The position numbers were made by a program, and so were the translations under genes. A stretch of DNA of 64,000 nt from Erythrobacteraceae bacterium Alg239-R51 (GTDB lineage: Bacteria > Pseudomonadota > Alphaproteobacteria > Sphingomonadales > Sphingomonadaceae): NCBI GenBank assembly GCA_947331495.1, contig CAMZOI010000002.1, forward strand, positions 62,001 through 126,000, written 5' to 3'. The notes under the pieces were generated by a model. The model saw only the letters and a program-made list of their open reading frames with translations. It made no database searches and was not told the origin of the DNA. This document shows positions 12,585 through 16,719 of the stretch, one piece after another (position 1 is the first letter of the stretch; the number at the start of each line of letters is the position of its first letter).

Positions 12585-14598
<2,014 letters not shown>

Positions 14599-14660
14599 AG
14601 CACGTGGGAATGGGGGGAGTCGGAGCGCCCCCTAAGGGCGTGGAGACGTGCAAAGCACAA

Positions 14661-14714
14661 ATGAGCGAGGTATATCGTGAGAAGGGCGAGCGGTTGTATT
14701 TGCGGGAGGGGTAG
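14661..14714 (+). pseudogene. duplicated and diverged copy of a thiC 3' end
   Basis: A 17-codon ATG-to-TAG frame reads [17 protein letters not shown], matching the last codons of thiC ([17 protein letters not shown]). Fifteen bases (GAGAAGGGCGAGCGG, 14679-14693) equal thiC 14554-14568, while the codons around them differ synonymously and are AT-richer. It looks like the remnant of another thiC allele left by recombination at the edge of the accessory patch. Confidence 0.7.
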
Positions 14715-14720
14715 GAATTT

Positions 14721-15320
14721 TCAGGGTTTTTGAGCCGAAGTGGACTTAGACGTTCTCTTCCTTGGTCGCTTCTTTAGCTTGGGTTGGACTCCGTCGACAT
14801 ATTCACCTGCTTCATCGACGTCATCCAAGTCATCAGCACCGATCTCCGCGCACCTAACTATCAGCGCATTCCACATATCGACCGGAACATTGCCGCTAGC
14901 GTACGCCTTTGCGATGACATGGTATGGATTGGGAAGAAGCACAAACTGAACGTCCTTCGTTAAACCATGCTTAATCTGGATGAAGCCAAGCTCTTCGAGT
15001 CTTGAGATTCGTTCTCGCCATGTGCGAGCGGCCCGTTGCCCACTGAAGCCCGAGTAGGTTGCCATCTCATCTGCTTTCGTAATCTGCAGAAAGCTTTCAT
15101 CGAAAGTGCGGCACCAGATGTCGAAATACACCGAACTGACAGGGCAGCCTTTGCCGGCAAGATAATCCATAATTCTAAGGATAAGCGGCATCGCGCGCGG
15201 CATCGTGACGAACCCTGTTCGCTCTTTCCGATTCCACGTCATTTCCGTCGAGACTTCTGGCCAAAGCCTTCTGCGGACTTCTAGCTGTCGTTTTAGTATA
15301 GCGGACGCCTTGGCCGTCAT
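14721..15320 (-). CDS. putative winged-helix protein resembling plasmid replication-type proteins
   Basis: 199 residues. A Shine-Dalgarno-like TTGGAG lies about 8 bases before the ATG at 15320. The middle contains a helix-turn-helix-like segment (GFSGQRAARTWRERISRLEE followed by LGFIQIKHG), with a downstream block LLPNPYHVIAKAY. The C-terminal 50 residues are an acidic patch followed by a Lys/Arg tail (KLKKRPRKR), common in DNA-binding proteins. I recall similar proteins on plasmids and in islands but cannot name a family with certainty. GC is clearly lower than in thiC. DNA binding is the likely activity; the role is unknown. It shares strand and region with the SSB-tail protein gene at 15759-16511. 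Confidence 0.65.
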   Translation of the reverse strand: MTAKASAILKRQLEVRRRLWPEVSTEMTWNRKERTGFVTMPRAMPLILRIMDYLAGKGCPVSSVYFDIWCRTFDESFLQITKADEMATYSGFSGQRAARTWRERISRLEELGFIQIKHGLTKDVQFVLLPNPYHVIAKAYASGNVPVDMWNALIVRCAEIGADDLDDVDEAGEYVDGVQPKLKKRPRKRTSKSTSAQKP

Positions 15321-15758: not shown

Positions 15759-16511
15759 TCAGAACGGAATATCATCGTCCAGATCATCCGCGTCTCTCCA
15801 AGCTGTAACCTGTCGTCGCGGTGCGGAGAGTTGCATCGGCGGTGCGGTCGGCGCGAGCTGCCGAGTTTCATCCTCAGCGGCTTTTGCTTCTGCCACTATC
15901 TCAAGCACGTTAATGGTTAACTTATTGACCATTTCTCCAGTAGCCCAGACCCCACCCGGCAGCGCAAGGACTTCGAGCGCAATCCGAGTGACCGCGAGCA
16001 AGCTCAAGCGCCGTTTGTCAAGTTCGGCCTCGAACTCTGCTAACTTCTTAAGCAGGACCGCCTTTTTTGCATCGTTGAGGTCCGCACTGTCGATACAGGT
16101 TCTCAGGCCATGAATATGCGCGCGGACACGGTCCTTTGCTTTCGGTACTAGGGAAACAGAATTACTGCGCTCGCGGATGACGTTATCCAGCAATAGCTGC
16201 GTCATGTAGTGATCAAGGTCGGACTTAAAATCACGGTGCGCATTGAAGTCGAATTGCTGGTGTGTGGGCACTTCCATGGAAGCGAAGGGATCGATCTCAT
16301 ATTTTTTTGCAGCGGCGACAACTACGTTCATGAAGCCGTGGCGAGCTTCTTCGAGCTGATGATAGGCCTCCTGATCGTTGACACTATCAAGTTCCGCGGT
16401 CCGCTGACTCAACCGTCGCGACGCGTGACCTACGAAGGTTGAAAACGCCAGATTAGGATCTTCCGATAACTCCTCAATTTCCTCTTGGGTAATGAAGTCG
16501 AAGATGTTCAT
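15759..16511 (-). CDS. accessory protein ending in an SSB-type DDDIPF tail
   Basis: 250 residues. The N-terminal half is helical and charged. A long amphipathic/hydrophobic helix region (RRLSLLAVTRIALEVLALPG, then WATGEMVNKL and NVLEIVAEAKAAE) lies near residues 165-210. After a Pro/Gln/Arg-rich linker the chain ends DDLDDDIPF. This equals the acidic tail by which bacterial SSB recruits RecO, RecQ, PriA, exonuclease I and others, yet no OB-fold pattern is visible. So it could compete for or recruit SSB partners. Similar proteins may exist in other alphaproteobacteria; I cannot name a family. Lower GC than the core genes, and close to a thiC scrap, point to transfer. Confidence 0.7.
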   Translation of the reverse strand: MNIFDFITQEEIEELSEDPNLAFSTFVGHASRRLSQRTAELDSVNDQEAYHQLEEARHGFMNVVVAAAKKYEIDPFASMEVPTHQQFDFNAHRDFKSDLDHYMTQLLLDNVIRERSNSVSLVPKAKDRVRAHIHGLRTCIDSADLNDAKKAVLLKKLAEFEAELDKRRLSLLAVTRIALEVLALPGGVWATGEMVNKLTINVLEIVAEAKAAEDETRQLAPTAPPMQLSAPRRQVTAWRDADDLDDDIPF

Positions 16512-16610: not shown

Positions 16611-16709
16611 TTAACCCGCGCCCACCAGCGCTCGCAGCCCGCTCGGCGTCGTGTAACCCGCGACCACCTCGTGATAGCCGATGCCTGCCTTGCGCGCTTC
16701 CTTCCTCAC
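16611..16709 (-). pseudogene. short ORF or gene-end fragment next to the 124-residue protein gene
   Basis: From a GTG at 16709 the frame gives 32 residues rich in Lys/Gly/Ala and ends with TAA at 16611. It is open for a few codons further upstream but is shifted by one base relative to the neighbouring gene that ends at 16720. The composition (EARKAGIGYHEVV, then SGLRALVGAG) looks like a real protein end. It may be a displaced C-terminus of the neighbour after a frameshift, or a remnant cut by the accessory insertion. Confidence 0.3.
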
Positions 16710-16719
16710 CGCCTCGCCC

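Follow-up and report, generated by a model that had tools for sequence, protein, structure and literature searches.

An SSB-type docking tail on a rare, patchily distributed family of helical proteins in Alphaproteobacteria

The C-terminal tip of bacterial SSB is read by many DNA-processing enzymes, and among the docking peptides of bacterial DNA repair and replication the tail that bears it is the central one. RecO and RecG are examples of such readers in the parts of the published work drawn on here (PMC7913777, PMC10164576). The locus described below raises the question of why a protein that is not an SSB should end in the same peptide. It lies in a window of 64,000 nt (the whole stretch that was analysed, G000:C2:62001-126000; positions refer to it unless a contig or locus is named) from a genome of four contigs. 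The initial annotation had proposed a 250-residue protein ending in DDLDDDIPF at 15759-16511, with the tail at the very terminus behind a Pro-rich linker, as in SSB. The open reading frame is present, on the minus strand, which that annotation had not given, with its ATG at 16511 and its stop codon at 15759-15761; the call rests on the frame itself, on homologues and on a structural model, and we refer to the protein as P0001. Its translation bears out the terminal position of the tail behind a Pro-containing linker: the C-terminus is RDADDLDDDIPF followed by the stop codon, or DADDLDDDIPF when two residues more than the nine-residue tail are read. The nine tail codons occupy 15762-15788 on the minus strand, and the Pro-containing LAPTAPPMQLSAPRRQ is the linker directly N-terminal to them (approximately residues 218-241, 15789-15860, minus strand). 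AlphaFold2 confidence is low across linker and tail from about residue 221 on (pLDDT 52-65), and the linker is probably disordered. An acidic tip of the form DD[D/E][I/V]PF on a flexible linker, a feature of SSB, is thus found in P0001 in both sequence and model.

The body of the protein is of a different kind. P0001 resembles bacterial SSB (PF00436) in carrying DDLDDDIPF on a flexible linker, but SSB is an OB-fold ssDNA-binding family, whereas P0001 is helical and has no family match. PF00436 did not match P0001 at E values up to 1, nor any of 25 family members at E values up to 0.01. The AlphaFold2 model (22 sequences, pLDDT 82.6, pTM 0.56) is almost wholly helical instead of an OB-fold, in agreement with the earlier remark that no OB-fold was visible; it has seven long helices (residues 19-42, 47-70, 89-116, 123-142, 147-164, 171-182 and 192-217) and only two strands, of three residues each. 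On the grounds of the missing PF00436 match and the helical model, a plain SSB or SSB paralogue is ruled out. The helical body, residues 1-217 (15861-16511, minus strand), could not be placed in any family by profile scans or fold searches. Pfam, NCBIfam, PHROGs and PADLOC models gave no credible match to P0001, and we dismissed as chance the matches to Pfam Paramyxo_P (E 0.006, under its cut-off), PHROGs phrog_9783 (E 0.0005, over 18 residues only and of unknown function) and NCBIfam FabI (E 0.15). When the 25 members were scanned singly, no Pfam model was common to them, each model matching at most two of the 25, and weakly. PADLOC-DB 2.0.0 gave no match to P0001 at E values up to 1 and only scattered weak matches among the 25 members (best 0.003, at most two members per model), so that no known defence family was matched. 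Moreover, Pfam and PADLOC revealed no nuclease, helicase or reverse-transcriptase domain in P0001 or common to the family, and no recognised catalytic motifs were found in the helical body. Foldseek searches of the model against PDB and BFVD returned nothing at E 0.001 or below; the best VIA row, PedB (Z 9.0, rmsd 2.7, 83 residues), does not reach the threshold used for helical bundles (about 13) and was not trusted as a fold relative. A search of PDB sequences with the family profile gave only matches of E 0.005 or worse, mostly to helical or designed proteins. There is accordingly no confident fold match in the libraries searched, which does not in itself show a new fold.

In its own genome the tail is shared with a single other gene. 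The codon pattern D[D/E]IPF-stop occurs at two sites in the whole 2.9 Mb, namely the P0001 gene and the main ssb, and at none when the pattern is reversed as a control. A PF00436 search found three SSB-family genes in the genome, all of them distinct from P0001, and no ssb was found within the 64,000-nt window. The strongest of the three has an open frame of 177 residues ending in NYDDLDDDIPF, and its last nine residues are identical to those of P0001. The two weaker genes (C1:426229-426561 and C3:71801-72133) lack an acidic IPF tail. At the DNA level the 3' ends of the P0001 gene and the main ssb differ in part of their codon choice, and the flanking sequences are unlike; nothing in this genome therefore points to recent copying from ssb.

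P0001 belongs to an undescribed, rare and patchy alphaproteobacterial family with members on chromosomes, plasmids and prophage contigs. With its own genome counted throughout, relatives of P0001 were found in 2 of 60 genomes of its own genus and in 2 of 99 relatives in all, in 6 of 385 genomes of the class when the single protein served as query, in 8 of 289 with the first profile (two short weak matches, in G377 and G124, being dropped) and in 8 of 296 genomes of the order; the two class searches draw overlapping sets of genomes, and their counts are not additive. The two copies within the genus are only 27-32% identical and so look like separate acquisitions. The closest relative, with 75% identity, is that of G500 (L059:411-1484), where a gene for a PIN_12-domain protein follows. 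Four relatives lie on plasmids, Methylobacterium, Methylorubrum and Methylosinus plasmids being among the carriers, and four on IMG/VR contigs, of which P0001 alone as query recovered none, alignment A6 three, the L029 protein one and the L063 protein none. On a 7.6-kb IMG/VR contig the gene for the terminase large subunit ends immediately before the start of the relative (L079:5237-5947), and a portal gene lies further downstream. For the members on prophage contigs, a use as tools of the phage would be just as plausible; a known phage gene was not identified, as three different queries found no match in 50,697 phage records. The Methylosinus plasmid pMSC49d carries a relative (L023:12010-12690) that ends in SDDIPF after a very short linker, adjoins a recombinase gene and lies near a toxin-antitoxin pair and ParA. 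On Methylobacterium and Methylorubrum plasmids (L003, L004 and L005) genes for an MmeI-type methyltransferase and a PLD-type protein come next after the relative (Pfam, L003 copies); this pair is likely a restriction-modification set and was found only in these three closely related plasmids. A constant operon partner for the family is rejected on the loci compared, this pair being confined to the three plasmids and the 199-residue neighbour of P0001 (described below) accompanying only two other relatives within flanks of limited length.

Within this divergent family, conservation of the tail, which the initial annotation had named as a check, is far above that of the body, and this holds for relatives with as little as about 20% identity. 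The C-termini of homologues are not random: 17 of the 23 members found by their bodies have an SSB-type tip with IPF or VPF (own gene included; 8 chromosomal, 4 plasmid, 7 from the order and 4 from IMG/VR, with L003/L005 and L068/L069 as near-duplicates and the G185 gene split). At least six further loci, L029-L034, came from a scan for the tail pattern and were not counted for this purpose. Across 18 alignment rows that were neither tail-selected nor duplicate, the mean share of the top residue was 0.39 for residues 1-118, 0.42 for residues 119-217, 0.39 for the linker and 0.75 for residues 244-250, which makes the tail nearly twice as conserved as the body. Conservation is not universal, since five members lack the IPF/VPF tip or have it mutated and one ends in DDEENPF (L019): L061, L062 and L065 have no SSB-type end, L010 ends in NDDDE, and the pCMU01 copy (L004) has lost its tail by a frameshift in the linker. 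In the tail-selected L030 a stop codon stands just before the tail. The existence of tip-less and tail-lost members suggests that the family body may have a role independent of the tail. A chance origin of the P0001 tail is ruled out by its genome-wide uniqueness together with the excess conservation of the tail.

In addition, the tails of the relatives appear mostly to follow the variant of the host's own SSB. We compared 13 genomes in which the relative has a [D/E]-[I/V]-P-F tail and a usable host SSB is at hand, the SSB ends being taken from 20 SSB loci and L046 (L077 not included) and from the best-scoring SSB where a genome has several SSB-family genes. Tail-less members, the DDEENPF member, L030, and the plasmid and IMG/VR members were left out, as were the split G185 gene, which would agree with its host, and L063, whose genome has two SSBs, one ending in EIPY and the other not included. 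At position -4 (D or E) the relative and the main SSB of its host share their residue in all 13 genomes (Fisher p 0.0006), five of which were tail-selected with a pattern that allowed D and E alike and fixed I; at position -3 (I or V) they do so in 11 of 13, G500 and G220 being the mismatches. On a tree of the bodies only, D/E changes four times and all three independent pairs go with the host; three to four independent changes are too few for significance. In permutations, the last four residues match in 12 of 13 genomes versus a mean of 5.2 in shuffles, a result that ignores relatedness and is given less weight than the body tree. The G500 tail is NYDDLDDDIPF versus FPDDLDDDVPF in its own host's SSB, and NYDDLDDDIPF is also the SSB end in two genomes of the window's genus that were read; a recent transfer would fit this mismatch. 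In G220 the relative has V and the host SSB I. Agreement with the SSB extends into the linker residues before the tip in Caulobacter (EFSADLDDEIPF versus SFSADLDDEIPF) and in G005 (SSYDDLDDDIPF versus SNYDDLDDDIPF), and was absent in others. Outside this host comparison, the IMG/VR member L067 ends in SYGGGFPDDLDDDVPF, which closely resembles SFGGGFPDDLDDDVPF in the SSB of G700, with 36 of 48 nt alike.

The initial observation thus holds and gains weight from the match with the hosts' SSB, and the interpretation offered with it is plausible and in part borne out. We lean, if only by a little, towards reading P0001 as a mobile accessory protein that bears the SSB docking peptide on a non-SSB body and docks on the host's SSB partners in conflict. 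Its free C-terminal DDLDDDIPF would insert into the SSB-tail pocket of DNA-processing enzymes of the host (or of an invader), with RecO, RecQ, RecJ, PriA, ExoI, RecG and primase as candidate receptors, and the helical body would hold or redirect the captured enzyme or displace SSB from it. The most likely use would be in conflict between host, phage and plasmid, the repair hub being redirected during replication of foreign DNA. Alternatively, P0001 might be a competitive inhibitor that fills the SSB-tail pockets and keeps RecO, RecQ and PriA off SSB-coated DNA, with an anti-recombination or anti-restart effect favouring the carrier element. The exact host tail and the relatives on plasmids and prophage contigs would suit such a role, but SSB is tetrameric and abundant, and P0001 with one tail per chain would be a poor competitor unless it, too, were abundant or multimeric; moreover, no consensus promoter was found for its gene, where 1.2 would be expected by chance. 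We regard this alternative as unlikely.

The surroundings of the gene bear on the remaining explanations. The P0001 gene (G+C 0.53) and the neighbouring gene for a 199-residue protein (0.52; 14721-15320, minus strand) are poorer in G+C than the window (0.61) and thiC (0.65). At the left insert edge (14554-14703, plus strand) the 3' end of thiC is accompanied by a partial second copy (14554-14578 and 14679-14703, 84%), and it is the stretch with this second copy that corresponds to the thiC-end sequence in several relatives. The right insert edge is a 3' remnant, about 35 codons long, of a DUF2726-type gene (16622-16717, minus strand). The 199-residue neighbour is plasmid-associated, with relatives on 164 plasmid records, many of them small (3-7 kb) E. 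coli and Klebsiella plasmids and others alphaproteobacterial; two plasmids of the small E. coli/Klebsiella type were examined and typed as ColRNAI. In G438 the P0001 homologue has a homologue of this neighbour next to it, and on pMOC2 one lies about 1.9 kb from the P0001 homologue; these are the only two other relatives so accompanied among 99 loci with limited flanks, so that the association with the P0001 family is weak. A search with the neighbour against IMG/VR found nothing, and its structural model was too poor to use (pLDDT 56.9, 2 sequences). In G336 ruvA and ruvB, identified with Pfam, have a relative (L016:9690-10409) between them, with ruvC upstream; the placement fits a link to recombination, gives it no direction, and concerns a copy that itself lacks the IPF tip. 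These loci, together with the plasmid members, would suit a role of P0001 as an accessory of repair or plasmid maintenance whose tail is a label localising it to the sites of SSB partners. We nonetheless consider that improbable: the ruv-linked copy is the one without the tip, no relative was found in the two other genomes of G336's family (one match in the three genomes of that family), and a patchy, low-frequency occurrence is unlike that of a housekeeping repair factor.

At 15 loci of the same genus a counterpart of the DUF2726-type remnant was found, with thiC sequence in view in 10 of them, and PADLOC was run on one or more ORFs from the thiC side of every locus. Convincing matches came from the scanned cargo ORFs of 5 of the 15 sibling loci: DarT in L089, with a NADAR partner (Pfam); PDC-M34A/B in L084, with HEPN (Pfam); a PDC-S19 protein in L094; an AbiZ-like protein in L097; and a type II methyltransferase in L087. 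The other 10 gave no convincing PADLOC match in the cargo ORFs scanned. L091 was not counted, as only CARF-type and regulator models matched it, through a short stretch; L096 has a DUF4062 and L090 a DO-GTPase2 domain by Pfam alone; and the remaining seven had nothing in the ORFs scanned. The P0001 gene occupies a site where some siblings keep conflict genes, which is an association and not proof. The idea of a defence or plasmid factor, also put forward in the initial annotation, holds as far as location goes (a variable thiC locus, four plasmids and four IMG/VR contigs), and nothing beyond location bore it out. A related explanation is that P0001 is a decoy or guard, its SSB tail serving to lure those phage proteins which attach to host SSB, and binding acting as a trigger or sequestering them. 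The defence-type genes at the same locus in siblings and a tail kept like that of the host's SSB accord with this, and a phage-side tail binder does exist: YbcN, an Orf-family protein of the DLP12 prophage, binds SSB much less when the C-terminal tail is missing, according to the part of that study used here (PMC4118853). Several defence systems respond to phage SSBs, as described in the sections consulted (PMC10732053, PMC13381803). However, Pfam, NCBIfam, PHROGs and PADLOC scans found no toxic or effector domain, and members occur on prophage contigs too, and we judge a decoy quite unlikely.

One locus suggests a way in which a member of the family may gain its tail. In L032, a Hyphomicrobiales MAG, 27 nt separate the ssb stop codon from the start of the relative, whose 3' end, together with its stop codon and the 4 nt beyond, duplicates the end of ssb over 58 nt, 56 of them identical and 33 in the longest exact run. 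A copy of the ssb end thus stands on either side of the gene, which has the tail and adjoining linker of SSB. The most economical explanation would be that L032 acquired its tail from ssb through recombination. At 58 nt the repeat falls short of the 150 given in the contig name, and if 150 is the assembly k-mer, a mis-assembly is unlikely, yet possible. Among the 13 genomes only L032 shows clear copying of ssb ends at the nucleotide level; the other ssb-like ends would be compatible with convergence or old events. One could object that insertion by recombination with ssb 3' ends merely leaves functionless SSB codons on an unrelated gene, for which the ssb-adjacent L032 with its direct repeat and the tail-less and tail-lost relatives might be cited, but 17 of the 23 members found by their bodies retain the tip while linkers drift, and ssb lies beside the gene at only 1 of 35 loci of relatives (L032; flanks of about 0.1 to 15 kb), which makes such a passive by-product very unlikely. 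If P0001 is indeed a docking protein, recombination with the 3' end of the resident ssb may refresh the tail of such proteins, a step seen at the DNA level only in L032. It is conceivable, if doubtful, that the mobile genes re-equip themselves in each new host with the resident SSB tail by way of the ssb 3' end and so travel as an SSB impostor or decoy. If this were true, the family would pass as SSB to every tail-reading enzyme, of host or phage.

Docking through the SSB tail is known; what would be new is a mobile non-SSB carrier. The SSB-sensing defence systems are built on nucleases, helicases or reverse transcriptases. DdrB, a protein of Deinococcus, is not known as mobile cargo. AbpAB, Hna, Hachiman, Nhi and Retron-Eco8 share with P0001 a connection to defence, theirs through SSB-related cues and that of P0001 through a defence-type location, but none of them is described with an SSB tail in the sections of those papers drawn on here (PMC10732053, PMC13381803). 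DdrB binds ssDNA and is beta-rich, unlike the helical P0001, and its motif is not needed for radioresistance, in the portion of the report concerned (PMC3834827). A PriB-SSBc chimera, like P0001, has an SSB tail on another DNA-metabolism protein; unlike P0001, it was made for study, and PriB structurally resembles SSB, as stated in the excerpt used (PMC8509808). Among the matches listed from open-licence PMC, none described a mobile non-SSB protein with an SSB tail.

A mobile non-SSB family with the host's own peptide would make the SSB hub a target of molecular mimicry, and the L032 copy suggests a route by which short docking motifs may jump between genes. The P0001 family would also offer a natural tool for diverting SSB partners. 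Finally, the P0001 tail would make an as yet nameless accessory gene at a defence-type locus accessible to concrete tests.
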